Source of the DNA: Crossaster papposus
Taxonomy: Eukaryota; Echinodermata; Asteroidea; Velatida; Solasteridae
Assembly (NCBI GenBank): GCA_037893245.1
Contig: JBAIAA010000673.1
Coordinates: 496,001 to 560,000 of the forward strand
DNA length: 64,000 nucleotides
Direction: 5' to 3'
The position numbers and the translations under genes are program-made. The notes under the pieces were generated by a model, which searched no databases, had not been told where the DNA came from, and was given only the letters and a program-made list of their open reading frames with translations. Positions 11,401-59,633 of this stretch are shown in pieces (position 1 is the first letter of the stretch; every line of letters starts with the position of its first letter).

Positions 11401-14400
11401 ATGGAGCACGGGTGGCTTGTGTGTAGAGCGCTTGCCTCTCACCTATGTGGCCCGGGTTCGATTCCCGGCCCGGACCATATGTGACCTGTCACCACAATAT
11501 GAGAGTAAAGTCGGAAAATTGAAAATTGAGATATTGATATTTTCAATTTCTTGAGAAAGAGAGCTTTCCAATGGTATATAACACTTGGGGGTTTTGCGAT
11601 AAATACATTTTACAGCGCTCCAGAAAGTCACGGGTTTCACAAAACCTGTTTGTGAGAAAACTTACTTATAAACATCCTAAAGAAAACACACAAAAGATTG
11701 CCAAACAGGACAAGTAAGGTTCGGTTGAGCATAGCAACTGCTATGTTCTAATCATTATTTCTTCTTGAAACTTTTCACACATACACACTATTGTATAATC
11801 AACATAATATCAAAATTTCGAAAACGTGGGATAGTTACGAAGACCTAATTTGCATATTTAATTACCGTGTTAATTAGACCACTGATGGACTTTAATCCAA
11901 ACACTAACCATGCAAACACTACTCAAAATCATGTAATTTAAGAGGTTTTCGATCATCTGATTGCACCCCAAAATTAGGAATATGTAGAGGAGGACTTAGG
12001 CTTTCCAAATTACGCAAAATCTCAAAATTGACCACCCCTTCATATTTTGACTTTGGAAGGCCATATCTCCAAATCACATTGTGCGACTTTACTTTCATTT
12101 TGTGGTGACAGGTCACATATGTGAGTACGTTGTGCATTGGTTCTCTCCTGTGCCACGAGGTTTTTCTCCGGGTCCTCCGGTTTTCCTCCCTCTTTCGAAA
12201 AATCAAACACTTTCGATCTCAGGCTGTGCTCCGTAGTCATATACGAGTTTACGTGCCAGCGGCTCGACCACGTTGTAGCCGCGTCCTTCGCAATTCAGCA
12301 CACCAGCTGCGAGTAAGGATGCTTAGCCTCCCCAGTTATTATTATTATTACTATTATAACACCAATGCTGGTGGACTGTGATCCGTGGTAAGTACGATAA
12401 CTTTGCTTAGCTACTTACCAACGGTGTTGTCGTCAATCTCTGCAGGGGGGATTTCCTTGCTAGCCAACCAGACTTGGGTTACGAGCTTGTACAGATGGGA
12501 CACAATATCCAACGATTCTACATCACAAATTAAACAATACCAAACTTGAAAAGTGATCCAGATTCCTAATCCGACCAATAAGCTATCTACCCACCGAGTT
12601 TCGTTAAAATCCCTCTAGTAGGTTATTCGTGATCCTACAAACAACAGACAGACATACAGACAAACAAACAAACTCCTTAGTGGAGGTAATGACCTTGTGT
12701 TGTTGAGAAGACTGGTAAACATGTCTTCTTATGCATTCCCCACACTTTGACGAGTACCAGCATCTCGCGCAGTAAGCACAGCGTGGAAGTGTCCCTCAGT
12801 ATACTGATCTGCAAGGGTCAAAGGTCAAGATGATTGTTATCAACTTTGCATACCGCCATTTTTATGAAACTGCAGAATGGGTATTGCGTTGTTGGAGACG
12901 CGAGCATGGTTGCGATTATTTCTGTTCTGGGTTTTTTCTCCCATCTCTACTCTAGTCTAAAGTAAACTGTACCTTCTTCTCATTGTCTTTTTACTGCAGG
13001 TTTCTTCAGGCTTGCGAGCTAGAGTGCCTAGGGCGCTTTTGAGGGATCCTTATTTTCATTACCATTACCATTACCATTACTTCTCTGTGGTCTAACACTG
13101 ACTTGTGACCCGACTTGTGACCCGACTCGCGACCCGACTCGCGACCCGACTCGCGACCCGACTCGCGACCCGACTCGCGACCCGACTCGCGACCCGACTC
13201 GCGACCCGACTCGCGACCCGACTCGTGACTCAACTCGCGACTCAACTCGTGGCCTGACGCCCCAACGCCCGACTCGACCCACGACCCGACTCGACTCGCG
13301 ACGCGACTCGACCCGCGACCCGACTCGCAATTTGGCTTGGCTGCGTCTCTGATGTGCAAATCTTACGAACCCCTGGTTTGGTTGGATTTGTAGCTTGTTG
13401 GGGTACGGTGCTCAGCGTGTGGAGACAATAGTCTGCAATCCACTGGATCAACTGCTGTAAGGACTGTAGCGTATCTGCAGAATTAAAGAAAGGAGACCGA
13501 AACTAGACATTGCCACAATTCGTCACCGTAACCAAGAACTAACACTAATGTCACGTGATACTTCTGGCGTTTTCACAAAGTAACGCACACGGATAGCGTC
13601 ACTTCATGAAAACTCACAAATCAGATACGCCGTGTTTGAGTTTTCACGAAGTGACGCTGTCCGTGTGTATTAGCTAAGGGCTTTGTGTTACTTCGTGAAA
13701 ACGCCAGAAATTGGCCCCGCGTATCTAGTTTTTACGAAGCGACGCAATCCGTGTGTATTAGCTATGGGCTTTGCGTTACTTTGTGAGATCGGCAGAACTG
13801 GGTCGCGATACAGCTATGACGTTAGTGTTACTTCGTGGTAACGGCGACGATTTGAAGAAAAAAGAAAACGTAAAAGTAAAATGTTGTCACATATGGTTTG
13901 AAATAAATAATAAACAACGAAACAACAACAAATATATCGTCGCAGGTTTCACGAACTGACGCGACCGACCGCACAGAGGTAAAACGTGATTTAGAAATAA
14001 TCGCATTTGAAGTTGGTGATCTTTTAATATCCTTTTCTGACGGATTTGTGTCATGGGGAATTTCCCCCAAAATGAGTGTATGAAAGTTGATACCTTAAAT
14101 AATCTAGCCAAATACTTACTTCATAAAAATAATTTCACAGTTAATGAGAAGACGTTCATAAAGCACAAAGACACTTCGTGAAAACTTACAAACACACAAC
14201 GCGCATTGTGCAAGTTGCCCGTATCCAAACAGTCACTTCGTGAAAACGTTACACACACACCGCGTTGCCCGTATTCAAAGTGAAAACCCCAACACACACA
14301 CACACCGCGTTGCCCATATGCAAAGTGTCACTTCGTGAAAACGTTTACACACACACACCGCGTTGCCCGTATTCAAAGTGTCACTTCGTGAAAACTAAAT

Positions 14401-17400
14401 GTCAGTGGGTCGACTTGTCTTGTACGCATACAACAGATGCCGGCTTGTCGCGTAAACAGAACAACATCGTACTCATTGTTGAAAGCGAAGCATGGTATAC
14501 CACACAAGCGCTCCTGAGATCGAGCTTGTCATGTCACTTCGTGAAAACCTTTACGCGAGAGGTCGCTGTCACATTAGTTTTCACGAAGTGACATCTTTTG
14601 AACCGCCACTTCGTAAAAACGAAAAAACTCAGTTTACTTAGATTATATACAAACTTGTTTACTTTATTTGCAAAACTAAACAGATTTAAGGATTGAGACT
14701 TGGTAGAAAGAGAGATAAATGTATTTCCAGTCCAAATAGTGACTGAACCCATTTTCATAAAAAGTCAGACTTTTGAGTAAAACGTCACTTCGTGAAACCT
14801 GCGACGATATGTTGCCAGTTTATTTCAATTGCAAAGTTTGAAGAAATATTTCTCACGGCTTTTTGTTATTTAAGTATTTAAGAACTGCATAACGATTATT
14901 TGGTTTAATGCCAATTACATGTAGTTAATAATTACATTCTTTCGTGTGAATAATAGTTACATTGTTCAAATAACAGCTTTATAACTTGTGGGAGTAATAT
15001 GTATTTTTGTGTAACTTACATGGGTCCAACGCAAATTCCTTGGCGTCTAAGTTGAGGAGAACTTTGTTGAGATCCGACTCACAGCTGTGGGCACAGATAG
15101 CTGCAAATGAGAAGAGGAGAATTACAAGAGTAACCCTTAAAGGTAGTATACACCATTGGTAATTGCTTGAATTATCATGAATGGGTAGATTTGGGGGTTG
15201 TATTTTACAGTAAATATCGTTTAACTGACCTGCCTGAAGTTTTACAATCATAGATGCCGAGAAAAGCATGAAAGACAGCGTTTGTTTTCAACCGGCGTCG
15301 AGCAGTTATTATTATGTTATCTTTGTCTTTTTCGCGATCGCAAATTTTACCTCATAAAATTCAATTTTCAGAATAATTACAGGATATCTAGCGCAATCAT
15401 TTTGCTGAGAATCATTATTTCCCTTCAAATGAGTAAGATGTTTCTCAATTATATGGTAGTCAATATTTTCGATATCTGCAAATGGTGTATCCTACCTTTA
15501 AGTGTTGACATGTGCTCACATGTACTCACTTGTGGCTGACATGTGGCTGACATTTGGCTGACGTGCTCATATGTGCTGACATGTGCTGACATATGACTGA
15601 CAACTTTAAACAACTGACAGCTTTAAATAACTTTCAAATCGCTGCTTAACAGTCAAATTTATGCCAAACACAGCCCTCGGTCATTTAATTGAGCCTGTAA
15701 GCAGTAAGCACAGCAAAAGCACGCTTAACCACAGACAAACAAAAAATGCTTAAATCGGTGATATAACAATAGATATCTCCATTGGCGTACTTGTGGCGTA
15801 CTTGTGGCGTACTTGTGGCGTACTTGTGGCGTACTTGTGGCGTACTTGTGGCGTACTTGTGGCGTACTTGTGATTGACTTGTGATTGGCTTGTGATTGGC
15901 TTGTGACTGGCTTGTGACTGGCTTGTGACTGGCTTGTGACTGGCTTGTGACTGGCTTGTGACTGGCTTGTGACTGGCTTGTGACTGGCTTGTGACTGGCT
16001 TGTGACTGGCTTGTGACTGGCTTGTGTCTGGCCGGTGACTGGCCGGTGACTGGCCGGTGACTGGCCGGTGACTGGCCGGTGACTGGCCGGTGACTGGCCG
16101 GTGACTGGCCGGTGACTGGCCGGTGACTGGCCGGTGACTGGCCGGTGACTGGCCGGTGACTGGCCGGTGACTGGCCGGTGACTGGCCGGTGACTGGCCGG
16201 TGACTGGCCGGTGACTGGCCGGTGACTGGCCGGTGACTGGCCGGTGACTGGCCTGTGACTGGCCTGTGACTGGCCTGTGACTAATTGAGTTCTAATACCT
16301 GAGAGTTTCTCTGCGGGTGACTTGTCCTGAGTTGAGACACTGGATGGTCTTAGGAGCGATTTAAACTCTGATGAGATGGCATTGAGAAGCAGCTTGGAGT
16401 AGCAGTCAACAGACTTGCCTGCTCCGCTAGACGTCATTCTGAATTTTGCAAAAAGTGACAAAAGTAAATTAGGCCTTGGCTAAGTTTCATAGACCTTTTA
16501 TTTCGGAACCAACATCTTGGGAGATATTTTGATGGACTTTTAATGGACTTTTGATGGACTTTTGATGGACTTTGGACGGACTCTGGGCAGACGCAGGACG
16601 GACTTTGGGCAGACGTGGGGCGGACTCTGGACGGACTCCGGGCGGACTCTGGAAAGGCTCCGGGCGGACTCCAGGCGGGGGGACTCTGGGCGGACTCTAG
16701 GCGGACTCAGGACGAAATTGGGGCGGACTCTGGCAAACTTGGGGCGAACTCGAGGCGGACTTGGGATGGACTTGGGGTAGACTTGGGGTGGACTCGGAAC
16801 ATAATTGGGGCAGACTCGAGACGGACTCGGGACAGACTTGGGGTGGCGTTCAAAAAGTTTAGACCTGTGCAGAGAGCCCTTGACAGCCACCAGACGGGAG
16901 AACAGCAATTCCTGGGTGGACTTTGCCTGTCTGTTGAATGCCTCCGTCAGCCGGTCAATCACTGTGTCGACCATTCCTGATAAAAAAATATAAAACAAAG
17001 AACTATCTAAGACGCATCTTTGGACAGCATGCCAGATGGAACAATTTCCCAGAGAGTAGTGTCATTGATATCTTTACAACAGGTATTTTTTACAATATCT
17101 TGGTCGGTTAATTTTTGAATAGCTACAAAAGGTATGTTTCAGCTTTAAACAACTGGATCCTAATATCAAATTGCTGCTTAACAGCCAAATTTGTGCGTAA
17201 CCAGCCTTCACCTATTTCATTGAGCCTGTAAGCAGTAAGACAGCAAGAGCACGCTTACTTTAAAAACTACAAAAAAAGCCGTGACGTAACGACGTAAATC
17301 TTTATGCACGCACAACTATTAGTACATCCACGCCATGAAATAGTGCTTAACCAGTTTGCGCCGGAGGACGTATATACACGCATTATTTTCCCCAGATTCA

Positions 17401-20400
17401 AAACGGATGACGCATTACGTCACGAGCAAGGCCGAAAATGTCTGTCAGAAGCGAGCAAGGCCGAAAATGCGTGGCGTGCTTCCCGGTACCATCGGCCTGA
17501 ACCCGCCTCGGATCGTGTTTTGTTAAAAACAATCCCACACCTCGGCTCGGAACTGGTTTAGCAGCAAAACGATTTTCGCTACAGTAAGCACAACTTTTCT
17601 GCTAACTGTTAAGCAGCGTTATTAAAATTTGCTCTCTGGATTTTCAAAAGTGTTGAAGCAAATCTCACTAACCTGGTGTAACAGTGTGGAGCAGATCCCA
17701 CCACTCGTAGCCAGTCACCAGACTATACTCCAACAGGTTCACTACCTGGGCAATGGTATGGGCCCTAGCGGCACCTGCGAACAAGAAGTTTCAAAATGCA
17801 CTCCAAAATCAACATTCAAGGAAAGTGCAACTACGAAAACGTGTGCACACCATTCACGGATTATAAACCAAGGGCCAATTTCATAGAGCTGCTTAAGCAC
17901 AAATAGTTGCTTAAGCACAAAAACCCTTGCTTGGTAAATCCAGTTAGGAGCCACAATTTCACGGGATCGTTATGCTAAGCTAACAACAGCTAAATACCAA
18001 TCACAAATAATATACATCACATGGAGTTGTGGCTCGTAAGCTGGTTCTACTAAGCAAGATCGTTTTGTGCTTAAGCAATTTTTATGCTGAAGCAGCTCTA
18101 TGAAATTGGCCCAAACCCCTAACGGGAATTTCCCAAAAATGCGTCTCTGAGACACATCTTTGGAAAAGAATCTGTTATTGATTTCGTTAATATAAAAACC
18201 ATGCCTGAGGGAATAATTTCACAGAGTGTTATAGTGTCATGACTATCTTTGCAACAAGCTAGCTTTTCAACAATAATTTGGTCGGTTACTTTTTGGGACA
18301 GCTGCAAATTGTGTACTCTAGCTTAAAACTTGCCGATAGTGCAAGAGAATCACAATTACTTGGGTTCGGCTTAAAATTACGCATGACTCTATGGTAGCGG
18401 CTTCCCATAGACTTGTGTGTAATTTCAAGCCGTAGCCATGTTATTTGGACAAGACCCAAGGTGCAATGGAGGAACAGCGGCTTCCCATAGACTTGTGTGT
18501 AATTTCAAGCCGTAGCCATGTTATTCGAACAAGATCCAAGGTGCAATGGAGGAACAGCGGCTTCCCATAGACTTGTGTGTAAATTAAGCTGTAGCCATGT
18601 TATTCGAACAAGACCCAAGGTGCAATGGAGGAACAGCGGCTTCCCATAGACTTGTGTGTAAATTAAGCCGTAGCCATGTTATTTGAACAAGACCCAAGGT
18701 GCAATGGAGGAACAGCGGCTTCCCATAGACTTGTGTGTAAATTAAGCTGTAGCCATGTTATTCGAACAAGACCCAAGGTGCAATGGAGGAACAGCGGCTT
18801 CCCATAGACTTGTGTGTAAATTAAGCCGTAGCCATGTTATTCGAACAAGACCCAAGGTGCAATGGAGGAACAGCGGCTTCCCATAGACTTGTGTGTAAAT
18901 TAAGCCGTAGCCATGTTATTTGAACAAGACCCAAGGTGCAATGGAGGAACAGCGGCTTCCCATAGACTTGTGTGTAAATTAAGCCGTAGCCATGTTATTC
19001 GGACAAGACCCAAGGTGCAATGGAGGAACACAATCCAAATTTGGTCTTGGACCAAGAATCCTACGGGGGCTATAACCATGCTACCCTCCCCGACTCTTCT
19101 GCATACCTTGGTCGAGAGCCTGACCCAGCGTCGGTGCGATCTTGATCAGGCACAGCGCACCCATGCGGTCAATAGCCATGATGCTGCAGCACGTACTGGA
19201 CATTTCCATGCACACTAGATGCTTGCTGTTGTAGATCTTTTGTCTCTTGGCTGGAGTCGTTAAAAGGTTGGATACACCATTGGTAATAAGCCATTTGCGC
19301 GTGACCCCGAGTTAAATTTAAATAATATCTGGTACACTGACTTGTTCACACAGCTTGGCACAGTTTAACTTTAAATTCTCCAGACCAAAGACACTGTTGC
19401 TATATCACGTGATTCGGGGCAAGCTCAGAGAGACGCTCAGCACCAATACATTGTTTACAATGGGTGAGAATGGCAAAAAGACACCAGACCATTCCAGAGC
19501 TGGGGGTTGCTAGCGTATGACGCGTTAGGCTTGCCCCGAATCACGTGATATAGCAACAGCGTCTTTGGTCTGGAGAATTTAAAGTTAAACTGTGCCAAGC
19601 TGTGTGAGCAAGTCAGTGTAACAGATGTTATTCAAATTTAACTCGGGGTCACGCGCAAATGGCTTATTGCTTGAATTATCATGAATGGGTGGATTTAGAG
19701 GCATTGTAATTGATAGTAAATATCGTTTAACTGACCCGTTCAAAGTTTTACAATCATGGATGACGAGGAAAGCGCATTGGCCAATGGTTCTTCTGTTGGT
19801 CTTGTTTTTTTCGAGATCGCCAAACAGCGATCGCGATTTTTGAAATAAAATTTAATTTTTCGGAACAATTATAAGACATCTTGTGCAATCATTTTGCTGG
19901 ATGCCTACAATCATTATTTACTTTTAAATAAGTAAGATATTTCTTAATAATTTGATAGTAAAAATTGTTCGATATCTGCAAATGGTTTATCCTACCTTTA
20001 AATTACAAAATCAATACAAATCATTCGTGTCCTCTTTATTAAATCGGAACAAAAATGTAGGTGCGCAGTTTCACAAAGTGTCGGACATACATTTTGAATA
20101 TTTTTTTTGCTCTGGATTATGAAAATTTGAATTTTTAACCAGTTCGCGCCAGGGGATGTGTATCAAAACGGATGATGCATAAACACGTTACGAGCAAGGC
20201 CGGAAATGTCCGCCAGCAGCGAGCAATGCCGGAAATGCGTGGGTGTGCTTTCCGATACCATCGGCTTTAAACCCGCGCCTCGGCTCGGGAATGTTAAAAT
20301 AATCACGGCGCGAACTGGTTAAGGACAGCATTTCTAAATTTACAAGTTTACCCTGTGATCCTGTGTCCACTTTGGCCCCTTCGTACTTGAAGGGCGCACA

Positions 20401-23400
20401 TGGCTTCAACGAAACTCTGAAATTCAGTTTTTAAAAATCCAATTAAAAATCAACCAAAATTGTTACGACTTTATCCAGGATGTGAATTTGGAAGATGATG
20501 TGAATTTGGGAGAGGATGCGAATTTGGAAGAGGATGCGAATTTGGTAGAGGATGCGAATTTGGAAGAGGATGCGAATTTGGTACAGGATGCGAATTTGGA
20601 AGAGGATGTGAATTTGGAAGAGGATGTGAATTTGGAAGAGGATGTGAATTTGGAAGAGGATGTGAATTTGGAAGAGGATGTGAATATGGAAGAGGATGTG
20701 AATTTGGTAGAGGATGTGAATTTGGTAGAGGATGTGAATTTGGAAGAGGATGTGAATTTGGAAGAGGATGTGAATTTGGTAGAGGATGTGAATTTGGAAG
20801 AGGATGTGAATTTGGAAGAGGATGTGAATTTGGAAGAGGATGAAGAGGATGTGAATTTGGAAGAGGGTGTGAATTTGGAAGAGGATGTGAATTTGGAACA
20901 GGATGTGAATTTGGTAGAGGATGTGAATTTGGAAGAGGATGTGAATTTGGAAGAGGACGTGAATTTGCAAGAGGACGTGAATTTGGAAGAGGACGTGAAT
21001 TTGGTAGAGGACGTGAATTTGGTAGAGGACGTGAATTTGGTAGAGGACGTGAATTTGGTAGAGGACGTGAATTTGGTAGAGGACGTGAATTTGGAAGAGG
21101 ACGTGAATTTGGTAGAGGACGTGAATTTGGTAGAGGATGTGAATTTGGAAGAGGATGTGAATTTGGAAGAGGATGTGAATTTGGAAGAGGATGTGAATTT
21201 GGTAGAGGATGTGAATTTGGTAGAGGATGTGAATTTGGTAGAGGATGTGAATTTGGTAGAGTATGTGAATTTGGTAGAGGATGTGAATTTGGTAGAGGAT
21301 GTGAATTTGGTAGAGGATGTGAATTTGGAAGAGGATGTGAATTTGGTAGAGGATGTGAATTTGGAAGAAGATGTGAATTTGGAAGAGGATGTGAATTTGG
21401 AAGAGGATGTGAATTTGGAAGAGGATGTGAATTTGGAAGAGGATGTGAATATGGAAGAGGATGTGAATTTGGAAGAGGATGTGAATTTGGAAGAGGATGT
21501 GAATTTGGTAGAGGATGTGAATTTGGAAGAGGATGTGAATTTGGAAGAGAATGTGAATTTGGAAGAGGATGTGAATTTGGAAGAGGATGAAGAGGATGTG
21601 AATTTGGAAGAGGATGTGAATTTGGAAGAGGATGTGAATTTGGAAGAGGATGTGAATTTGGTAGAGGATGTGAATATGGAAGAGGATGTGAATTTGGAAG
21701 AGGATGCGAATTTGGAAGAGGATGCGAATTTGGAAGAGGATGTGAATTTGGTAGAGGATGTGAATTTGGTACAGGATGTGAATTTGGAAGAGGATGTGAA
21801 TTTGGAAGAGGATGTGAATTTGGAAGAGGATGTGAATATGGAAGAGGATGTGAATTTGGAAGAGGATGTGAATTTGGAAGAGGATGTGAATTTGGTAGAG
21901 GATGTGAATTTGGAAGAGGATGTGAATTTGGAAGAGAATGTGAATTTGGAAGAGGATGTGAATTTGGAAGAGGATGAAGAGGATGTGAATTTGGAAGAGG
22001 ATGTGAATTTGGAAGAGGATGTGAATTTGGAAGAGGATGTGAATTTGGTAGAGGATGTGAATATGGAAGAGGATGTGAATTTGGAAGAGGATGCGAATTT
22101 GGAAGAGGATGCGAATTTGGAAGAGGATGTGAATTTGGTAGAGGATGTGAATTTGGTACAGGATGTGAATTTGGAAGAGGATGTGAATTTGGAAGAGGAT
22201 GTGAATTTGGAAGAGGATGTGAATTTGGAAGAGGACGTGAATTTGAAAGAGGACGTGAATTTGAAAGAGGACGTGAATTTGGAAGAGGACGTGAATTTGG
22301 TAGAGGATGTGAATATGGAAGAGGATGCGAATATGGAAGAGGATGCGAATTTGGTAGAGAATGTGAATTTGGAAGAGAATGTGAATTTGGAAGAGGATGT
22401 GAATTTGGAAGAGGATGTGAATTTGGTAGAGGATGTGAATTTGGAAGAGGATGTGAATTTGGTAGAGAATGCAAATTTGGAAGAGGATGCGAATTTGGAA
22501 GAGGATGTGAATTTGGTAGAGGATGTGAATTTAGAAGAGGATGTGAATTTGGTAGAGGATGTGAATTTGGTAGAGAATGCGAATTTGGAAGAGGATGTGA
22601 ATTTGGTAGAGGATGTGAATTTGGAAGAGGATGTAAATTTGGAAGAGTATGTGAATTTGGAAGAGGATGTGAATTTCCAACTCGCTAATAGCATAGTTGG
22701 TATAGAGAGGCGAGCTATGGATCGAAAGGTCTGTGGTTCGAATCCGACTATCGGTAACGTTTGTATTTTTCTTCGACAAATTTTCTTATGGGTTATTTTA
22801 ACCCTAGAACAAAGTTGAAGGGAAAACCAGTTTAGGATACATAAGTGCAGGGTTGTAGCTACACATTTTTGAGGGCTGGCTGTTTTCGGGCTGGAGGGTT
22901 GAGCCATTGTAGTATCGGCCTAGTTTCTTTGTCAAAACTTTGCAATCGCCATGTAATGCAGCACAATTTGTGCCGGCTGGCAAGCTTCATTTTGATCCCA
23001 AGTGCCGGCCGGTGATTAGGAATGCCAGCTAGAACCGGCCGGCAATGGCCAGCGTAGCTACAACCCTGCATAAAATACAACAAGAACAAATACGCTGGTT
23101 AATTCTTATTCATAAATAACTTTGACAGTTTAGGCATTTCTATTGGTCGAGAGCCCGTCACGTGGCTGGTATTAAACGGATGATAAAGACATGGCTGGAA
23201 GTGTTTAAAACCAGCTAGCAACAAAGGTGCAATGACGTTGATGCCGTATTTGCTAACTGCTCATTCAATGGCAACGTCGTCGTGAATATGGCCCCACGAG
23301 CATCGCTATCGTCAGCTTAAAACACTGACACATGACACTTGGCAATAGTTTGCCAATATTTATCGATGATTTGGTCCAAAAAATGAGTGTAATTTGCCAA

Positions 23401-40643: not shown

Positions 40644-40680
40644 AAATGTGGTACCAGCTAGTTTTTCAACTTAGACCTCA

Positions 40681-42212: not shown

Positions 42213-45200
42213 CTATACAAACATTGACGAGCATAAGGGACAGCACTGCCGCAGAACTCTCCTCAACCAAGCAGAACCTAGAAGACAACCACACAAAATG
42301 TTTTACCTTGGTACTAAAACAAAATTCACGGCAAGTTAGTGTGTTAAAATGAAAAACAGTCCAATTCAAGGCTCATAACTTTGCTTAGGGCAATCCCAGC
42401 ATTACGAACAAAAGTGTAATGTCTGGAAGGAAGGGGTCAGCCTGGTGATTCCTGTGTTCCTCGATCTCTCCTTTAGACTGAGCTTGGGTTAGATTTTTGG
42501 GCCAGGGAACATATAGGTACACACCAGAACCTATGTTCCCCTGATCCCTATGTTCCCCCGTCCCTATGTTCCCCTCTCCCAGTCCCAAACCCAAAGCCAA
42601 ACCACAACGATTGGGGAACACAGGGATTAGGCAATTACTGGTAGAGGATCGAAGAACACAGGGATTGGGGAAGGCAGGGAACGCAGGGATCGGGGAACGC
42701 AGGGATCGGGGAACACAGGGATCGGGCAACACAGGGATCGGGGAACACAGGTATGCACCCATGAAGGATTACTTAAAATCCTGCAGACAATTTTTTTGCG
42801 CTTAACACAATTGTGCACTAGAAGTTTTCTGCTCTTATCTTACCCGATCGATCTTGCGCCGGCAAGGCAATGGTGCTGCATTGCACACACTCTCGCGTCT
42901 TGGCGGTCGTCTGGCAAAGCTGCAAGCTTAACTGACATCGAGCTGTAGGATTAACAGATAAAAGTCTTCATCAATGGAGTGCTTAAGTACCTCAATGTAA
43001 CAAGGGATACATAACGCCTTGAGGGGATTATCTCACACCAATATATTTTGTTGAACTATGCGAAAAAGTTCTTTAATCAGTTCGTGCTGGAGGACGTATA
43101 TACATGCAAATTTTTTCCAAGATTCAAAACGGATGACGCATAAACATGCCACGAGCAAGGCCGGAAATGTGCTTCCCGGTACCATCGGCCTGAACCCGTC
43201 TCGGCTCGGTGATGTTAAAATAATCCCGGCTCGAACAGGTTAAGGAGTAGTTTTTCGGCGATACACAAACGTGTTTACATAATCATAATCCTCATTTGGC
43301 ATGTTTAGTACTCACAGCACTTCAGCGAAATATGTCAACATGGAAAACTTATAGAAAAGAAAACTCACTCCATCTATGTCCGTTAGGGCAGGCATCAGAA
43401 ACAATACTGCTAAAAGGAATAAGTACGGGGGGAAATAACAGTTAAGGAAACACAATTTTCTTTATTTCTAAAAGTAATAGATTACTGCAATTTTTTTTTT
43501 GAAAACAGCAAAGTTTACTAACGGTGAATTAAATATTAAAGTAACTGGGTGGTTCAACTAGACAAATAATGAATAATGAAGACATTTTCTAAATTCAGTG
43601 GGAAATTGAAGGTGCGAGAATGTTGGCTATTACTTGACTTTGATAAACTTAAAGGGATCGTATACATTTGGTAATTGGAAACAGTTGTTTGTTTCAATCC
43701 TATATAGTTATAGATATATACTATAAAACTAACCTGTACAAATTTCATTTCAAAATATGGTAGAGATTTTGAGATATTGCCGAAATCCTGGAGCGGTTTT
43801 GTCCACGCAGGAAGCATAATCTGCATTGGAATACACACTCGTCACTGCAGTAACGCTTCTCAAATTCAAATTTTTGAGGATAAAAAGTGATATCATTTGC
43901 CATAACCGCAGTACTTCGAAGTGAAAAGTTTCTAAAAATGCATTATACTATCCAAAGCTGCTGTACTTCTCACCAAGTAAGTTTTTATTGCCATAAATGT
44001 TTGGAGTAATTACCAAACGTATACGATCCCTTTAATAATGAAAATTTTCCAAGACTGAGGCCAATTTTATAAAGCGTGTTAAGCACAAACATGTGCTTAG
44101 CATGAAAATTCTTCCTTGGCAAAAACAGGGGAACAAACACAATTTGTAGTTGGTGTTTATTGTTTGTGCTTAGTATTGAAGCTGGTTTTTGCTTAGCAAT
44201 TAAAATCACATGGTGTTTTGGCTGATAACCTATTTTTACTGAGCAAGAGGTTGCTTTTGTGCTTACATGTTTTATGAAATTGTAGTCCATTTTTGGCAGT
44301 TTCTTTATAAAAATATATAATTAGGATTACATTGACATATTTAGTTCTAACACTTTTTAAAAAAAAAAAAAAATTGTGTAAAGGACAAATTTGCCTACGA
44401 AGAAAATATCAACGTAGAACAATTTTGTTTCCAAAAGGATATTTTCGTCGCACAGGTCACATGTCTCTCTCCTCCCCACTTCTGTCTCATGAGGATTGGA
44501 TTTATAAACCCCTGTAACAAGAGTTTTGATTGGCTCATCGCTGCTTTCAATTGAGGTAGACAGCCAATCAGCCATCAGCAACAATGCGGTGGTGTGGGAG
44601 ATTGCTATGCAAAATAAAAAACAACAAAAAAAGGATAGCAATATATTTGTAACATAACAGCACAAAATGCGCGTACAGTCGCGATATGGATTACCTAGTT
44701 TATACCAGTATAAACGACATTTTTCAATGAAAATTCAATTTTGAGATTTTAACATCTTTCTATTTGAAAAAAAAACACTATTCTGTCACATCCCAAAGTG
44801 TTGAAACTGGACCCGGTAAATGTCAAAAATAATCCCTGCATGAACTGGTTAAATAAATTTAAATAATGACAGAAAAATATTGACAGAAAAATTGTGAACC
44901 TACCGTTGTCGCCAACACTTTTGGCGGGCATATGTTGCCAAGACTGAAGGGAAGCTAAAAAGTGTGATTCTCTTAACTCTCTTTCAATCTTTTGTATGTC
45001 GGACTCCTTTCAAATAAATAAAAAAGGAAGTAGGATCAAAATAATTTTTTTTTAAAGGGATCGTATACATTTGGTAATTACTCCAAAAATTAATGGCAAT
45101 AAAAACTCACTTGGTAAGTACAGCAGCTTTGGATAGTATAATACATTTTTAGAAACTGTTCATGTCGAAGTACTGCGTTTATGGAAAAAGATATCACTTT

Positions 45201-48200
45201 TTATCCCCCAAAATTTGAATCTGAGAAGCGTTACTGCAGTGACGTTTCTCAGATAGTGTATTTGATCCAATGCAGATTATTCTTCCTGCGTGGACATAAC
45301 CGCTCCAGAATTTCGGCAAAATCGCTACCACCTTTTGAAATGAAATTTGTACAGGTTAGTTTTATGGTATATATCTATAACTATATAGGATTGAAACAAA
45401 CAGTGGGTTCAAATTACCAAAGGTATACGATCCCTTTAAAAAGGACAATAGGACTTGGGAGGACAAAATTAGGATAAAAGTTGGGCTTTTGCGGGCGTTC
45501 AGGAGTAGTTTTCGTAGACACTCACCCATATCTCCATCATGAATCCTCATTTGACATGTTCTGTACTCACAACACTTGTGCTCCATCCTGAACTAAGCTC
45601 ACCTAAGCCCTTCAGTGACAGTGTGTAACACTGCCATGTGTAAATCTATTCAATGAGATTTCATTTTTCGGAGTTGTGAGACAAAAAATAGAAAAAATTG
45701 AAATTTTGAAAAGAAAGCAGGAAACGTAGGAGTATAATGTGAGAAAACTAACGCTCGATTCAGACAGGTGTTCCACAGTCACGCCGAACCAAATAAGTAA
45801 ATTGAGTCCGACCTCTGAAACGAATAAGGGCGACAAGGCGCGCTAGGCGGCGAACGATCGACTGCTGGAGTTGTTAGAGCGACTCAGGAGCGACTTGATT
45901 TCAATTTGGTTCGGCGCGACTGTGGAACGCATGTCTGAACCGAGCGTAAACAAAAGTAGAAGTACTCGACAGCCTGGTGAACCCTTCCTCTATGAGAGCT
46001 GCTCACTGGAAGGCAGTGGCACATGCCAATGCACTCCAGCTGCAGTGCATTGTAGGATTCTTTGCATGTGCAGTGAGGGGCACTTCTGTAGTTAATAAAT
46101 GGGCATATGGCTTTGCTTATCAGTGTAATATGCACTATGGACATAGCATGGTTCAGTTGACCTGCAGATTCATATGGCATTCTTTGGAGTGCTTTTGGAG
46201 AGACATGTAAAAACGTAGTTTTTTGTTTGTTTGTTTGTTTGTTTGTTTGGTTTTTTGTGTGTTTTTTTTGGGGGGGGACTATTGAAGAGTGTTGGAATGT
46301 AAACAAGAGCAAGAGTTAACATGTTGACTGCCGGGCATAATTTCACAGGGCACCCCCATTTGCCAAACATTGTACGCATGCGCATACTTAAAAGGTACAT
46401 TAAAAAACACCACAAAACAAAAAATGAACATAAACATGTATGTCCTCACCACTGCCAGCAGCGTATTTGTTCCGTTTTTGGTGATGCCAGTGTATTCAAT
46501 TTACAATACAAACACCTTTCATTTTCTACGAGTATACTCGTAGTGGCAGAATCCGGTACACCTGTTTAATACTACGACTATACTCGTAGTCGGCAGTCAA
46601 CATGTTAAGCTCATTTTGTGGTAACAGGTCATGTATAACTAAGTCCCTGCCCGTCATCGTACCATTTGCACTATCTGTTCCTTTGTCCCATTCTCCCCGT
46701 CTGTGTCCTTGCCGGCCCCTCCCCCAGCAGCCTTGCTCGTCTTCATTAACAACAGGAACCTTCTTAGCCTCAGGGTGTGGGTGTGGGCCCCACCCTGGCT
46801 CCGCCCGGCCTCCACGGCCAACTCCCCTTCCGCGACGGACTCTAACTCGCGCGGGAGACGATCGCCGGTGTTTAGGAAGTTCTGGCGGAGGAATTCGAGC
46901 ATGTCGGTCTTTTTGCTCAGGTCTTCTGGAAAGAGCAAATATTTCGAAAGAATACACTAATACTGAGCTCATTCAAATCGGAAGTATACTAAATCCATGC
47001 AAATTAAAAACATTAAAAGTTCACAAACTAGTATAGAATGTTTCATCTGTCCCTCTTAAATTTTTTTTTTGGGTTTCACTTTATTTATCGAAATGAACCT
47101 TATCGTTTAATTAACCAGTCTGCGCCAGGATTATTTTAACATCACCGAGCCGACGCGCGGGATTATTTTTAACAAAACTCAATCCGAAGCGGGTTCAGGC
47201 AGGTCATAGTACCGGGAAGCACACCCACGCATTTCCGGCCTTGCTCGCTGCTGACAGACATTTACGGCCTTGCTCGTGGCATGTTTATACGTCATCCGTT
47301 TTGAATCTGGGGAAAACTTTGCGTTTAAATACGTCATCCGGCGCGAACTGATGGTTAAACCTAAAACTTTAGAAATTAAAAGACAAAAATTAACATTTTG
47401 ACAAAAAATGTTGAGCAAGCTATTACACGTAAATACATAGACTTATATCAACTTTTCCTCGAGCGCGTCACCTCAAACCTATTTAACTGTGGAATTTATT
47501 GCAGTTCGCTTACTGTGGTAGTCCATTAACTCGGCCGCAACAGTTTCCATTTTGCCCAGCGTGCAGAAATTGAGTAACCGTGGGGGAACCTTCTTCGAAA
47601 CTCGATGCCTAAAAATTGGAAAGATAAAACAATTATGGACCAGTTCATTGCAAATCACTTGTATTATTTATTATTATTTTTTGTTATGAAGCGTACTATA
47701 TGCACCAGAATTATTCATATCTTTACAAAAAGTAAACTTGTCAACAGAATTTTGTTTGATTACTTTTTGGATGGCTGCAGATGTTATATTGCACCTTTAA
47801 CCCCAAACTACCCCAAGCCTATCAAACTCCAACTGCAGGTTTTGCTAGGTTTTGGCAGGTTTGGTACCAAACATTAGCAACTTGTAGTTGGACTTTGTTT
47901 GACTCGGTGCCAAAGGCCCAGGGAGACCCTGTTAACAGGGTTGTAGTCGAGTCCCTGCAAGTCCGTTCACAAGTCCTTTTGTGAAGCCAGTCACAAGTCC
48001 TTTCATAAAGGCAGTCACAAGTAACTGGATGAACAATGACAAAGGAATGCCTTTGTCAAAGCTGATTTGAATAGCTTGTGATTTAAATTGGAACTGGAGG
48101 ACTTGTGATGGACTTGCAGGGACTTGCACAAATGTTGGAGTTTGGGGGAATGCACAGGCATTTATTCGTGGGTGAGCTCACTGCTGGACACAGCACAATT

Positions 48201-51200
48201 CCTAGTTAACTGTAAGTGTGATATGTACACCCTGTGTGTCCCCACTCAAACAGTCCAACACACCCAACCAATGGCCAGACATCATGATCACAGCCCTGAT
48301 CCTGAACACAGAACAATGCATAGACCCATCTGTACCAAGTCAATCAAAACTTCAACAAGTTGGAGTTTGGCAGGTTTAGTACTGCTAGGTCCAGTACCAA
48401 TAATTACTGAACCTGTGTGCAGTTGTTGAAGATTGTTAGGTTTGGTTTGCTTTCTAGTGCGAGAGCCTAGGGGGTTAGGGTTAACTACTGAACCTGTGTG
48501 CAGTTGTTGAAGTTTGTTAGGTTTGGTATGATTTCTAGTGCGAGAGCCTATAGGTTAGGGTTAAGGGTTTAACTTACGTGATTGGTTTAGCCACGAAGAC
48601 ACCGTGTGGGGATATAGCAAGTCCAAAATTCTTGCAATTTGCATTGAAGGGCTCCACGACATCCATCTTCATAACTCCATCTATACATTAAATTAAAAAA
48701 AAAAATTATGAGTATTTACATGTTTAAGCCAAAGAGTGTGCACTGTGTTGGGAGAACTTTTTAGGCCAGTTAATTTTTAGGTTTTCATCATATTGAAAAA
48801 AATAATAGTCTTTCAGGAGAATTTATATATTTTTTTTCAATTTAAGTCCTTTACATCATTGGAGAGAAAATTGGTTGTTCTCACAGACTAGAGGTCAATA
48901 TGGGAAGTCACTATAAACTAACCAGTGTAGCGGTTCTTGTTGTATTTTTCAAGAAACTTATGTAGCCTAACCCGGTTTTCCCTTCAGCCTTGTTCAATGA
49001 TTAAAATAATCCATAAGAACATTGTTGAAGAAAAAACAAACGTTAATAAGTCGGATTCGAACCGCAGACCTTTCGATCTATAGCTCTTCTCTTTACCAAC
49101 TATGCTATTGGCGAGTTGGTTGAGGAAGCCGTTCTTTATAATTCTTTATAGTTCTTTAACGTATATGAGTTGTCATTGCTCTTTCTCATGAATATACATT
49201 CACGCACCACCTAGCTCCTGAAAAAAAATAACGCGAACCGCTACACCGGTTAGTATTAAGTGTCTTCCGTCAATATGACCTTATGTGAGCTATGACCTTA
49301 TGTGAGCTATTACCTTAATATGAGCTATGACCTTAATATGAGCTATGACCTTAATATGAGCTATGACCTTAATATGAGCTATGACCTTAATATGAGCTAT
49401 GACCTTAATATGAGCTATGACCTTAATATGAGCTATGACCTTAATATGAGCTATGACCTTAATATGAGCTATGACCTTAATATGAGCTATGACCTTAATA
49501 TGAGCTATGACCTCACCTGACTTTGTCCAATCAACGATGGTCCGATGAGTTTCGCCGAATGAACTGGTCGTCAGAACCATGCACCCAGAAACACACGAAC
49601 CTGCAATGAAATATGGCAAACAACTAAACATGAATGCAGCAATATTAGGCTTAAACTCCAAACTAAATCACTGGAGCTGCTTAAAGGTAGTATACACCAT
49701 TGGTAATTGCTTTAATTAGCATGAATGGGTGGATTTTGGGGGTTGTATTTTATAGTAAATATCGTTTACCTGACCTGTTCAAAGTTTTACAATCATGGAT
49801 GCCGAGGAAAGCAAGAAAAACGGCATTCATTTTACCCAGGGTTAGGCAGTGACTCTTATGGTTTTTTTGGGTTTTTTTCGCAATCGCCGTCCGGCAGTCG
49901 TGAATTTTTTTAAGCTGAGAACCTAAAGAATTTTTAAAAAGCTAAATCGGTAGTGCTGGTGAGTGCCGGTCCCAACGTTCCATGCCAGTACCTCATCGTG
50001 AACATAACGTTCCTTGTAGAATCTCCAAGACTTTCTGGAACTGTCCTTACTGGCTTTATTCAGCCATTCCGGTAAGGTCTCGGGTACAAACTCCGGAATA
50101 TTCTTTAGAGATTTCGAGAAAGAAAAGCCTCGATCGAAGAAACAAATGCAACAATCATCATGTAAGGCCATGTCCGAAACGAGTGTCTAGAGCTACGGTC
50201 TACATCTACGTCTACGTAGGCGCTAAGGCAAATGGAATTCGGACAGGGCTACGGTAGAGCCTACGGCTAGTTATTGCGCTCCCAAGCGATGCTTGAATTA
50301 GTGTTTGCAAAATTACGATGTAAGAATTTACAACAATTATCGTCTGCTAGATGTTACGCAATGTTTGTTTACAGCCAGTCGGAATACCTGATGATATTGA
50401 CGTATTTGTCGATCTGTTAGTTTCAACTCAATGCACTATCATTGAAAAATAAACGAAATTTTGCTCCAAAATTAACGTTAGTGCTACCGCCATTTTGTTT
50501 TGCCTGAGCTAGACAACTTCTTTTATGGCTAGATTGTTGTGATGTTGTAGCCGTAGCTGTAGCTCTAGACAGCATTTCGGACAGCGCTACAAAATGGCCG
50601 CCGTAGACAATAGACCTAGCCGTAGCTCTAGACACCCGTTTCGGACACAGCCTTAGAGGGTGCAATCGGTCTATTGATCGCTTACTTGGCGGCCGCCACT
50701 TAACTTGTCCCAACGGCCACTTACCATCTGGTGGTACGGGATTCTTGCCAGAGTTGTGGGCTGAACGGACCACCGTCATGCTGCAAAGGTCCACAAGGAA
50801 CACCATGAGAAACAGACCTTTAGTCACGACAAGCGTGGCAACGCTCGACAATTCCTGAACGGGAAAACAAATATTTGTTCTGAAAAAACTCATAACACGC
50901 GAAATGCTCATGCTCTTACATGAAACAATCGGATATCTGTCGCTTACAAAAGCTTCAAAACAATGCTGCACGCATCACACTCACACAACCTAAACATTGT
51001 TATGCATCACCACTTCTTTGACAATTACACTAGCTACCTGTTCGAAAACGCATCATCTTCAAAACGGCTGTGAATATGTACAAGGCACCATCAGGCACGC
51101 ATCCACAATACATAATATATTCACTTGACCTCAGTATGCCCAACCGACGTGGTCTCCGCTCGGAGCATAACTTAAACGCACATTCAAACATGCAGGTGAT

Positions 51201-57200: not shown

Positions 57201-59633
57201 GGAGTTTGGCAGGTTTAGTACTGTTAGGTTCAGTACAGTGTACCAAAAATTACTGAACATGTGTGAGCTGTTGAAGTTTGTTAGGTTTGGTATGCTTCCT
57301 AGTGCGAGAGCCTAGGGGGTTAGTATAACAGGTTCCTCTTGGGGTAAACTGTCTTGCCTAGGAACACATTTTAGTTAGTCTGGAACAGCGACCCACTGAA
57401 CAGGGCCAGGCAATGTCAAACCGTATTCTAAGAGCTTATACAGGATGCCACAGTACACACCATTCAATTGACGTACTGGTCGGTTTCACAAGTGTGTCCT
57501 CGAGCAAGACGTATTACCGTAATCATTTTTTCGCCCCTATAGTATACTTGCCATGGTCATGTTGCCTTTCTTCGACGTCCTTTTGTAAACGTTGAGTCGG
57601 TGGTCCAATGCGAGACATGCTAAAATCACACTAATTGAAGAGAAGAAAAAAAATCAAAAATCAAAAATGTTAAGAGCCCCTATTACATAATTTTCAAAGT
57701 GTTTCCCAGCACCCAGTATATGGGTGGTAATCTGAGTATTGTGCAGATTTATGCGACCCTGGGCCCCAGCCAATCAGAGTCCACCGTGATGTCATTTGGT
57801 GCAGAAATCTGGACAAAGCTGCCGATTGGCCAATTTGGCTGCCGTGTTTTTGTAACATAGCAATGGGTAACGGAAGACGCAATATTACGCTGAAAATTGC
57901 CTGCTGAATGGACATAATCTTGATGCCAAGATGTGGTCTTGGGAGCAATTATAGAATGCAGCTCCCACTCACAACTCTCAACTTTATTTACCCTAGGACA
58001 TTGAATGGACTGACCCTAACCCTAACCCTAACCCTGTATACCCCAATACCCATAGAATACAGGGCCACTCCATTCTATGTCATAGGGTAAATAAAGTCGA
58101 GAGTTGTGAGTGGGCCCTGCTGGGCCCTGCATTCTATAGTTAAGCCGTGGTCTTGTTTGCACAATTAATCACCTAATCTGCTCGCACATCATAGACGCTC
58201 GTCCTAGTGTGTAATCATAAGAGGTACCTGTCAAACTGCCGGGTACCAGCCAGCGACCATCGGACCAGCTTGAGACCATTCCTGCTACTGATAGCTCGGG
58301 CAAAATTAATGTCTTCACAACTGTCGCTGGTTGGCGGGGAGAGGGTCTGGTCTGTCAAAATGGATCTCATCAGACCTGTGCCAGAAGGTGATTCAAAGCT
58401 GTCACAGATTGGTGACTTCACGTACACAATTTAATGACAATAATGTGACAATTTAATGTGACAATAATACATGTTTATGTGACAATGAAATGTGACAATA
58501 AAATGTGACAATGACATATAATATATTATGTGACATACAACTATGGCACATGACTATGACAATGAATGTATGACTATAGCAATGGTATATTACTACGACA
58601 TATGACTATGACAATGTTATGTGACATATGACTGTTGCACGATTATGACAAGGACGTATGACAATATCACAATAATGTGACATGTGACAATTGTGACAAA
58701 TGGGACATATGACAATTACGACATTATGTGACATATGACAATTGTGACAAATGTGACAAATGTGACACGTCACAAATGTGACAATTTTGACATGTGACAA
58801 TTGTGACATGACAGTTATGATGTGACATGTGACAACTGTGAAATTCGACAATTGTGACAAATGTAACATGTATACGAGTCTCAACAGACTTACGGTTTTG
58901 TTGCTCTTCATCGTCCAATGTCTCAAAATCAATGCCGACATCAAACTCTAATATTTCAGCATGTGATTTGATGATGGACTTGTTGAAGACAAAGTTGCCG
59001 TTCTGTTTAGATGGATCACACTGCAGAGACTATTACCCCAAAACAATAAAAAACAATTTGTCAATGTTATGATAATGAATATTAATTGGTCACGTTAATT
59101 CACTGCCACTGTGTAGTTGTGTGGTTTGTGGCTCAGTGTGCACAACTGAACTGAACCTAGTCCTAGAGTAGAGCGCGCAAATAGCGCAATAAAAAAACAA
59201 CTTTTAGTTTTAACAATGTTTAAAGACCTGCCAATGCAAAAAATCTAATATAATTATGTGACCCATCACATCAAAATCAGCAGCAAGTCGGAAATTGACT
59301 TTTTGAGATATTTACATGGTAATATTGACATTTTATAAGATTTGTAATGATACCCTGCCACTGCACTGGTGACCCAGCAATGCCCAGTTGCAGTGGCAGT
59401 GGCAGTGCATTGTGCCCACGCGCCAATTCAAATCGCGGTAAACTCTCATCACCGACCCCAAAACAAAGAATTTTCCTAAACTAACTGAATCCACACAAAC
59501 TCACGAAAATCGTGACACATTTTGGAGTAGCAATGGCAATTCTGTTGTCCTCCGACCACGAAATCGCATCACAACTAACCGGCAGGTTCACGAGATTAAT
59601 GGGCGCAGCCATCTTTGTTTTAGACCGATCCAT
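42213..59633 (-). CDS. GTF3C4: General transcription factor 3C subunit 4 (TFIIIC90), complete 18-exon gene
   Basis: TFIIIC90 is a subunit of the RNA polymerase III factor TFIIIC, and the human protein is reported to have histone acetyltransferase activity. Exons from start to stop: 59633-59505, 59020-58894, 58375-58228, 57630-57552, 56040-55887, 55153-54982, 54072-53966, 52702-52539, 50854-50725, 49600-49517, 48680-48578, 47608-47514, 46925-46663, 45006-44904, 44604-44421, 43409-43369, 42942-42844, 42277-42213. All phases agree, giving about 748 residues (human 822). The N-terminal beta-propeller has DAISWSEDNRIAIATP, LACLALDHRLNVY, LLAVAMKSGHVVIWKLPL, AWLAVGDTQGRVSIWSI and GLAISPHGVF. The C-terminus is a double zinc-ribbon-like region: CDLC, ACPNGHRW, RCQLSLQLCQ, ECVQC, then WLRRVLRQCCPLC before the stop. 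The start could also be the in-frame ATG at 59612 (MAAPINLV). The exon 15 donor (GTTCTA) is weak but fixed by phase and homology. Intron 4 appears to be GC-AG. Confidence 0.95.
42585..42760. repeat. Minisatellite GGGGAACACAGGGATC
   Basis: Irregular units of 15-18 bp, preceded by an inverted relative (CCCTATGTTCCCC) at 42530-42580. About 80 nt downstream of the GTF3C4 exon 17 donor. Confidence 0.85.
43077..43243 (+). mobile_element. Family B MITE, shortened
   Basis: TCAGTTCGTGCTGGAGGACG to GCTCGAACAGGTTAA. One of the two GGCCGGAAATG repeats is missing compared with 63451. Confidence 0.8.
43648..44035. mobile_element. TTAA-flanked MITE, family C
   Basis: TTAAAGGGATCGTATACATT at the left and GTATACGATCCCTTTAA at the right. 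A second copy at 45052-45442 is in the opposite internal orientation. Confidence 0.88.
44062..44290. mobile_element. Palindromic MITE, family D
   Basis: GCCAATTTTATAAAGCGTG, GTGCTTAGCATGAAAATTCT and TTTATGAAATTG relate it to 17872-18115 and 62155-62350. Confidence 0.75.
45052..45442. mobile_element. TTAA-flanked MITE, family C
   Basis: AAAGGGATCGTATACATTTG to AAGGTATACGATCCCTTTAA, with CTATATAGGATTGAAACAAA inside. GTF3C4 intron 13. Confidence 0.88.
46318..46605. mobile_element. TIR element with AACATGTTGACTGCC ends
   Basis: AACATGTTGACTGCC near 46319 and GGCAGTCAACATGTT ending near 46605 are perfect inverted copies. Inside, a CTACGAGTATACTCGTAG palindrome repeats. GTF3C4 intron 12 side of exon 13. 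Confidence 0.75.
47114..47356 (-). mobile_element. TTAA-flanked MITE, family B
   Basis: TTAACCAGTCTGCGCCAGGA to CCGGCGCGAACTGATGGTTAA, with the full family interior in reverse. Confidence 0.85.
47797..48484. mobile_element. TTAA-flanked piggyBac-like element with nested insertion
   Basis: TTAACCCCAAACTACCCC at the left and GGGGGTTAGGGTTAA at the right. CTCCAACTGCAGGTTTTGCT and GGGAGACCCTGTT are shared with 56843-57322. The block 47937-48125 (TCGAGTCCCTGCAAGTCC to GGACTTGCAGGGACTT) interrupts it. A tail duplication to 48560 repeats the last 80 bp. Confidence 0.7.
48955..49120 (-). mobile_element. tRNA-derived SINE
   Basis: Reverse copy of the 22676 SINE: AACCCGGTTTTCCCTTCAGC, then GGATTCGAACCGCAGACC (B box) and TTACCAACTATGCTATTGGC (A box). 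GTF3C4 intron 10. Confidence 0.8.
49268..49516. repeat. 18-bp minisatellite starting at the GTF3C4 exon 10 splice donor
   Basis: In the transcribed strand the intron opens GTGAGGTCATAGCTCAT and continues as about 13 copies of ATTAAGGTCATAGCTCAT. The donor hexamer aligns with TTAAGG of the unit. The exon 10 frame is open through the array (repeat KVIAHI). Confidence 0.96.
49684..49930 (+). mobile_element. Family A MITE, 3'-truncated
   Basis: TTAAAGGTAGTATACACCATT start. Family landmarks continue to the CGCAATCGCCGTCCGGCAGT region. The right end is missing. Confidence 0.8.
50164..50657. mobile_element. TIR element with AAGGCCATGTCCGAAACG ends
   Basis: AAGGCCATGTCCGAAACGAG and CGTTTCGGACACAGCCTT are inverted ends. 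Inside are repeated CCGTAGCTCTAGAC and GTCTACG words in both orientations. GTF3C4 intron 9. Confidence 0.8.
50930..51448 (+). mobile_element. LINE 3'-end fragment (L2/CR1-like)
   Basis: AAGCTTCAAAACAATGCTGC (KLQNNAARI) and a frameshifted stretch correspond to the LQRIQNSAARL region of the complete LINE. It ends AAATGCGCTTTATAAATGCC and (ATT)n. GTF3C4 intron 8. Confidence 0.8.
51675..51915. mobile_element. MITE, copy of 10390-10622
   Basis: TAGATGATGTGCC to GGGCACATCGTCTA, with ACATCTGTATTCAAATGTGC and its inverse inside. Confidence 0.8.
52033..52397 (+). mobile_element. TTAA-flanked MITE, family A
   Basis: TTAAAGGTAAGAAACACCATT to GATATCTGCAAATGGTGTAT; the last terminal bases have decayed. 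GTF3C4 intron 8. Confidence 0.85.
53354..53505. mobile_element. Short TTAA-flanked CCCTAAC...GTTAGGG element
   Basis: TTAACCCTAACCCTCCAGGG to GGCAGGGTTAGGGTTAA. 53235-53325 upstream belongs to a different repeat. Confidence 0.6.
54273..54506 (-). mobile_element. TTAA-flanked MITE, family B
   Basis: TTAAACAGTTCGCGCCAG to CGGCGCGATCTGGTTAAA. GTF3C4 intron 6. Confidence 0.85.
55255..55480 (-). mobile_element. tRNA-derived SINE, reverse copy
   Basis: GGATCCCTCAAAAGCGCTCT, AAGCCTGAAAAAACCTGTAG and box B inverse TTCAAACCCGGGTCACAG. Pairs with the plus copy at 55540-55740. Confidence 0.8.
55540..55740 (+). mobile_element. tRNA-derived SINE
   Basis: CCGGGTTCGATTCCCGGCC (box B), GGGTTTTTCTCCCACCTC and CAGGTTTCCTCAGGCTTGCG. 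Inverted to the neighbouring copy, so the pair could form a hairpin in GTF3C4 intron 5. Confidence 0.8.
56102..56545. mobile_element. TGTGACCTG-family TIR element, TA target duplication
   Basis: TGTGACCCGCTCCATCGAAA to ATGGAGCGGGTCACA. TA at 56100-56101 and 56546-56547. GTF3C4 intron 4. Confidence 0.88.
56548..56762 (-). mobile_element. SINE with GTGTCTTGCCCAAGGGC motif, reverse copy
   Basis: CAATTATTACCCTGTTCATC, GTTAAGTGTCTTGCCCAAGG and CACTGGGCCATGGCATTCT match, in reverse, the SINE at 61885-62150. Confidence 0.75.
56843..57322. mobile_element. piggyBac-like TTAA element, intact relative of 47797
   Basis: TTAACCCTAACTACCCC start; CAGTACCAAAGGCCCAGGG and GTGCGAGAGCCTAGGGGGTT at the end. 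Lacks the 47937-48125 insert. Confidence 0.65.
57949..58140. mobile_element. TIR element with (CCCTAA)4 near its centre
   Basis: TATAGAATGCAG and CTCACAACTCTC at the left have inverses at the right. Four telomere-like CCCTAA hexamers lie at about 58013-58036. GTF3C4 intron 3. Confidence 0.75.
58440..58870. repeat. Degenerate GTGACAAT / GTGACAAATGTGACA minisatellite filling GTF3C4 intron 2
   Basis: GTGACA words recur at 8-15 bp spacing over most of the 518-bp intron. The array starts about 25-35 nt after the exon 2 donor, and the exon frame is open into it for about 50 codons. Confidence 0.85.

Follow-up and report, generated by a model that had tools for sequence, protein, structure and literature searches.

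Among the closest described systems are the mirages of amphioxus, which are described as tandem repeats lying across the exon–intron boundary with unit lengths of 10-72 and 150-160 bp. As regards a cephalochordate host, a GFP family search of the genome gave no match, nor did it respond in any of the controls, and a Med16_N search overlooked a gene that is in fact there. Tetris of Drosophila virilis is outlined in its abstract as a foldback/TIR element that carries internal tandem repeats of about 220 bp inside its inverted repeats (PMC4079207), tandem genomic duplication is introduced in another abstract as a route of intron gain (PMC4974935), and human minisatellite VNTRs are, by title, the subject of a further study (PMC8096271). 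The titles and abstract openings of this literature report no excess of minisatellites on the donor side of introns, and such a report may exist. As far as these outlines allow comparison, the arrays described below resemble the amphioxus mirages in three respects: introns 3 and 7 of CCT3 repeat an exon tail together with its 5' splice site, the two haplotype copies of some other arrays (MED16 introns 3 and 4 and an array at a dynein locus) have different numbers of units, and the unit lengths overlap. However, most arrays of the window do not take in the splice junction; nine of the 11 donor-proximal ones there show no copy of it, the other two (MED16 intron 3 and GTF3C4 intron 10) being weak cases. 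Similarly, an element in MED16 intron 4 is like the outlined Tetris in having inverted ends and tandem repeats variable in number, but differs in carrying a 12-bp minisatellite between these ends and in having no recognised duplication of the target site (PMC4079207). The likeness to intron gain by tandem genomic duplication, as summarized in its abstract, is that the duplication carries splice signals; the difference is that no new intron is shown here (PMC4974935).

The window is the whole stretch of 64,000 nucleotides that was analysed (G000:C673:496001-560000), taken from a genome of 1.02 Gb in 1841 contigs whose genes mark it as eukaryotic. Two genes in it, both on the minus strand, were identified as MED16 (PDB 7emf_P, E 7e-49; Pfam Med16_N, E 1e-13) and GTF3C4 (PDB 8cli_B, E 8e-24; Pfam TFIIIC_delta, E 1e-22). 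Exon models were built with a purpose-written protein-to-genome spliced aligner that used human proteins as probes, and comprise 23 predicted exons for MED16 and 21 for GTF3C4; the predicted MED16 intron 21, of only 36 nt, was regarded as spurious and excluded from all counts. The intron numbering of GTF3C4 is uncertain because its exons 14-17 are weak. Donors in all of our gene models are predictions, and those of MED16 introns 6, 14 and 17 have low scores. No better-scoring donor lies near those of introns 6 and 17, and one is found 26 nt upstream of that of intron 14, which would make the array gap there 47 nt. In addition, de novo exon finding in five stretches flanking the window on contig C673 gave no exon above the cut-off; the method also missed GTF3C4 within the window and was dropped.

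Arrays were defined by Tandem Repeats Finder with a score of at least 50, a period of at least 7 and a span of at least 50, hits being merged within 30 nt, and this yielded 17 arrays in 13 of the 41 introns of MED16 and GTF3C4. The arrays and related features concerned are as follows (window coordinates).

35053..35540, minus strand: array of MED16 intron 3; 33-bp unit, 13.7 copies, 3 nt after the donor and 19 nt before the acceptor, so that the intron is essentially array
34342..34845, minus strand: element of MED16 intron 4; 504 nt, starting 72 nt after the donor, with a core array at 34470-34822 (12-bp unit x29, more precisely 29.4 copies) 95 nt after the donor
32230..32561, minus strand: donor-side array of MED16 intron 6; 19-bp unit, 12 nt after a weak predicted donor
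28072..28370, minus strand: acceptor-side array of MED16 intron 6; near-identical 19-bp unit, 120 nt before the acceptor
20477..22676, minus strand: array of MED16 intron 10; 18-bp unit, 124 copies, 60 nt before the acceptor
18396..19030, minus strand: array of MED16 intron 12; 79-bp unit, 8 copies, 76 nt after the donor
16527..16843, minus strand: array of MED16 intron 14; degenerate, filling the intron, with gaps of 21 nt to a weak predicted donor and 88 nt to the acceptor
15783..16282, minus strand: array of MED16 intron 15; 11-bp unit, 16 nt after the donor
13107..13328, minus strand: array of MED16 intron 17; 12-bp unit, 42 nt after the predicted donor
58426..58868, minus strand: array of GTF3C4 intron 2; degenerate, filling the intron, with gaps of 25 nt to the donor and 50 nt to the acceptor
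49274..49513, minus strand: array of GTF3C4 intron 10; 18-bp unit, 3 nt after the donor
48401..48564, minus strand: array of GTF3C4 intron 11; 81-bp unit x2, 13 nt after the donor
47936..48128, minus strand: short match, in GTF3C4 intron 11, to the element of MED16 intron 4; 449 nt from the donor and 327 nt from the acceptor
42530..42751, minus strand: 16-bp repeats, partly inverted, of GTF3C4 intron 20 (possibly the intron 17 of the initial annotation); 92 nt after the donor

The initial annotation had placed arrays directly after the donors of MED16 introns 3, 4, 6, 12, 14, 15 and 17, and this list is exact, the arrays starting 3, 95, 12, 76, 21, 16 and 42 nt after the predicted donors. Its entries for GTF3C4 introns 2 and 10 also hold (25 and 3 nt), its 'intron 17' is probably our intron 20 (92 nt), and the array of intron 11, 13 nt from the predicted donor, is donor-proximal as well. 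Its further statement that only the array of MED16 intron 10 sits near an acceptor was incorrect, as those of MED16 introns 3 and 14 and GTF3C4 intron 2 end 19, 88 and 50 nt from theirs and the second array of MED16 intron 6 ends at 120 nt. Because the arrays of MED16 introns 3 and 14 and GTF3C4 intron 2 fill their introns (donor/acceptor gaps of 3/19, 21/88 and 25/50 nt), they are uninformative on the choice between donor and acceptor. In MED16 intron 6, a single 19-bp unit forms two arrays at opposite ends of the intron, with the endonuclease and reverse-transcriptase frames of a LINE (Exo_endo_phos and RVT_1, plus strand, window 28739-31420) between them, and these may formerly have been one array that was split by insertions. 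Separately, several frames on both strands stay open for hundreds of codons within the 18-bp array (window 20359-22815), probably because its period is divisible by three.

The position of the arrays was assessed against random placement of each array within the intron that holds it, leaving 6 nt free next to the donor and 50 nt next to the acceptor. Of the 17 arrays, 11 lie within 100 nt of a donor, as compared with 5.0 expected from this null (p 1.5e-4, a value which is optimistic, like all of the p values for the window, because the pattern was picked from this same window), and the number ending equally close to an acceptor is four, with 4.0 expected. So many donor-proximal arrays had been called surprising under random placement, and in the 100-nt zone they do exceed the expectation, but arrays nearer to the donor than to the acceptor number only 12 of 17, with 10.4 expected in the donor-side half (p 0.29), and the mean relative position is 0.398 (p 0.07). 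When one array was counted per intron, 12 of 13 were in the first half (p 0.018) at a mean position of 0.301 (p 0.007). When the intron 4 array of MED16 and those of introns 11 and 20 of GTF3C4 are left out, eight of 12 still lie within 100 nt of the donor (4.1 expected, p 0.001), and mixed origins therefore do not explain away the local excess.

The same measurements were made on 94 introns of other genes holding 24 arrays. Eight CCT genes contribute 81 of these introns and 23 of the arrays, and the remaining 13 introns, with one array, come from three dynein loci. Locus C356, with a poor CCT model (score 182), and locus L052, an allele of L051, were left out, as were anchor pairs lacking a splice solution in L052 and L053. 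For L051, the last two introns and the array gaps were read manually, so that the figure of 13 dynein introns depends on this reading, and a placement of the L051 array abutting its acceptor was rejected, the acceptor read by eye lying 47 nt after the array. In this small sample, which is not genome-wide, the 100-nt zone at the donor takes in six of the 24 arrays, where 5.0 are expected (p 0.36), a lower rate than the 11 of 17 in the window, and the zone of the same size at the acceptor takes in two, where 2.9 are expected. The first half of the intron holds 18 of the 24, as compared with an expectation of 13.3 (p 0.035); over all 24, the relative position averages 0.354 (p 0.006). When each intron contributed a single array, the near-donor count was five of 21 (4.7 expected), the first-half count 15 of 21 (p 0.10) and the mean 0.38 (p 0.028); at a score of at least 100, the corresponding values were four of 16 (4.0 expected), 11 of 16 (p 0.23) and 0.362 (p 0.026). 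These data show that the tight donor clustering is not repeated in the 94 other introns, a small sample, and that a weak 5' shift remains. The claim of donor-proximal arrays is thus borne out within the window but not in these other introns, and a lack of donor excess elsewhere, which the initial annotation had named as the outcome that would refute its idea, is what this limited set gave for the 100-nt zone.

A DNA search of the whole genome with window 33900-37200 as the query, in which 40 of 11734 candidates were scored, showed that the array of MED16 intron 4 forms the central part of a dispersed element, whose inverted ends measure 35 nt and are 83% complementary (34342-34376 and 34811-34845). 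In addition to a copy on contig C177, this element occurs in at least 37 other places outside the window, over approx. 440-530 nt at 89-94% identity and with ends near the same positions, a number that is a lower bound because only 40 of the 11734 candidates were scored. Five shorter matches of 129-193 nt were found in the fetched loci or in the window, and the 24-bp array of GTF3C4 intron 11 (47967-48022), which is not donor-proximal, belongs to the same element. Tandem copy number within elements of this type ranges from 2.3 copies of 24 bp in GTF3C4 intron 11 and 5.8 copies of 12 bp in CCT1 intron 8 to 29.4 and 39.7 in the two copies of MED16 intron 4. No obvious direct repeat of the kind left by target-site duplication was seen in the flanks of the MED16 intron 4 element.

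Units of the other arrays were searched for in 195,105 bases of loci L031-L055 and in the window, with matches below 40 nt omitted, a search that would miss rare families. Among the matches listed, the 81-bp unit of GTF3C4 intron 11 recurs elsewhere at 82-93% identity, including copies in other introns (window 57240-57323, L039 5430-5519 and L032 4543-4629), and this unit is a short dispersed repeat. The 79-bp unit of MED16 intron 12 recurs in part, again among the matches listed, at 73-83% identity over 46-113 nt. Those listed for the array of MED16 intron 3 were in its own C177 copy and those for the intron 6 arrays were in each other; part of the intron 15 array matches window 17140-17257. 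For the arrays of MED16 introns 10, 14, 16 and 17 and GTF3C4 introns 2, 10 and 20, no match of at least 40 nt beyond themselves was found in these bases and the window. The description of the arrays as unrelated in sequence was therefore wrong, given that units of MED16 introns 4 and 12 and GTF3C4 intron 11 occur elsewhere and that the 24-bp array of GTF3C4 intron 11 shares the intron 4 element. Among places of dispersed repeats in modelled introns, MED16 intron 12 included, nine of 11 are nearer to the donor, and the mild 5' shift may therefore concern inserted DNA in general rather than tandem repeats as such, these numbers being small and the places overlapping arrays that were already counted.

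A different origin is apparent in CCT3. In intron 7 of this gene (L041/L042, G000:C420), a 123-bp unit repeated 38 times contains 67 nt of the exon tail together with a strong donor, which gives 37 surplus copies of the donor core (with two mismatches or fewer), and in intron 3 a 94-bp unit, present in 6.9 copies, contains 63 nt of the exon tail. Reading the exon frame onward into intron 7 leads to a stop after 55 residues, and the repeat is therefore not simply coding; with its 37 surplus donors, this intron offers a natural setting in which to ask how the spliceosome chooses one among many near-identical donors. Clear copies of the junction were found in only these two of 133 introns, a count that took in 11 dynein introns, with a third case at the edge (20 of 30 positions matching). 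No clear copy of an acceptor junction was seen among the 133, and the start of the exon after CCT3 intron 8 has a near copy in the upstream intron. Similarity to the exon tail and to the donor region was assessed for 20 arrays, with p values left uncorrected. On this uncorrected basis, the array of MED16 intron 3 gave p 0.013 and 0.023 respectively, that of GTF3C4 intron 10 gave p 0.05 with the donor region and p 0.80 with the exon tail, and that of CCT8 intron 3 gave p 0.017 with the donor region, whereas nine of the 11 donor-proximal arrays of the window showed no similarity to their own exon tail and donor (smallest p 0.29). The array of MED16 intron 3 perhaps copies its exon–donor junction, as these values weakly suggest.

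Contig C177 holds a second copy of the stretch from intron 1 to intron 5 of MED16, at 93-96% identity in the main matches, which is most likely the other haplotype. Both arrays that could be compared there differ in size, with 13.7 copies in the window and 19.7 in C177 for intron 3 and 29.4 and 39.7 for intron 4, and the donors of both introns are kept. The dynein-locus array has 10.9 and 11.9 copies in its paired loci. The C177 copy of MED16 also has an insertion of approx. 620 nt inside exon 4 (L055 about 2089-2714), with inverted ends and a short repeated flank. Several dynein loci occur as near-identical pairs (for example C209/C566, C866/C984, C414/C279, C417/C211 and C589/C953, one pair being 97.9% identical), and the assembly therefore probably holds both haplotypes for part of the genome.

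Taken together, these data show that the donor-proximal arrays are not one phenomenon, as one lies in a dispersed element, two have units that occur elsewhere and three fill short introns. On balance, they probably reflect mixed ordinary origins, combined with unequal tolerance along the intron and a weak general shift towards its 5' end. Arrays would grow by ordinary unequal exchange or slippage, and would be kept wherever the donor and the last 50-100 nt of the intron, with the branch point and pyrimidine tract, are spared. New DNA could then sit closer to the donor than to the acceptor, because the donor needs few bases and the first donor transcribed is recognisable first, and the outcome would be a weak 5' shift generally and a run of tight cases in MED16 and GTF3C4. 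Tolerance that spares the branch point and acceptor, one of the causes put forward initially, would fit the weak 5' shift that the other genes show, but is not proven by it, and such a mixture does not fully account for the excess seen in the window. This excess might be no more than a chance cluster noticed afterwards, with near-random placement genome-wide outside the acceptor zone, and the 94 other introns agree with such a reading in their near-donor counts, whether all arrays (six against 5.0 expected, p 0.36), one per intron (five against 4.7) or only those scoring at least 100 (four against 4.0) are considered; however, their mean position is still displaced to the 5' side (0.354 with p 0.006 for all arrays, and 0.38 with p 0.028 when each intron contributes one), and we regard pure chance as rather doubtful. 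At the other extreme, it is decidedly unlikely that arrays are born at donors through a transcription- or splicing-linked process (R-loop, stalled polymerase or slippage) that makes tandem duplications. The 11 of 17 window arrays within 100 nt, where 5.0 are expected, and the short distances (3 to 25 nt) that separate several arrays from their donors are what such a process could leave, but the pattern is not repeated across the 94 other introns and the MED16 intron 4 array is element-borne. R-loops predict a G-rich sense strand, and among the 18 arrays lying no more than 110 nt from a donor the sense GC skew was mixed (seven positive, ten negative and one zero), on which ground an R-loop cause was rejected. 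If arrays grew from the donor, unit identity should change progressively along them; among 13 donor-proximal arrays, six were more uniform on the donor side and seven less, which amounts to no common gradient of homogeneity, and outward growth was likewise rejected. The proposal of R-loops or transcription-coupled slippage is thus not supported, given the mixed skew and the location of the intron 4 array inside a dispersed element.

Duplication of the intron start is plain in CCT3 introns 3 and 7 and perhaps present in MED16 intron 3. In its general form, this explanation holds that the arrays arose by tandem duplication across the exon–donor junction, as in the amphioxus mirages, with the exon part lost later. 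The CCT3 units, with their 67 and 63 nt of exon tail, and the uncorrected p values for MED16 intron 3, GTF3C4 intron 10 and CCT8 intron 3 are in its favour, but clear copies in two of 133 introns and the nine of 11 donor-proximal window arrays without junction similarity make it unlikely for the arrays at large, and boundary duplication as a general cause was rejected. Beyond the preferred mixture of ordinary origins, a bolder proposition, which we advance only tentatively and hold to be doubtful, is that inserted and repeated DNA in the introns of this genome is polar: minisatellites and dispersed elements alike would gather towards the 5' splice site and be kept from the 3' half of the intron over far more than the branch-point zone. 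The start of the intron would be the safest place because donors are recognised co-transcriptionally, on a first-come basis, and CCT3 would be the extreme case. The local pattern becomes a measurable question as to where introns tolerate new DNA, for which the in-intron null and the two haplotype copies provide the comparison.

Several other features of the window were noted in passing. A tRNA-Glu (ctc) gene was predicted by ARAGORN at 11406-11476, inside MED16 intron 19 on the opposite strand, and a kinase-like frame with a weak Pfam match lies on the plus strand beside the end of MED16 (7952-8515). Between MED16 and GTF3C4, a plus-strand frame at 38390-40640, which we take to be XRCC2-like, has a weak AAA_25 match to its first part and none to its second. 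Finally, a 105-bp unit is present twice, at 100% identity, at window 152-361.
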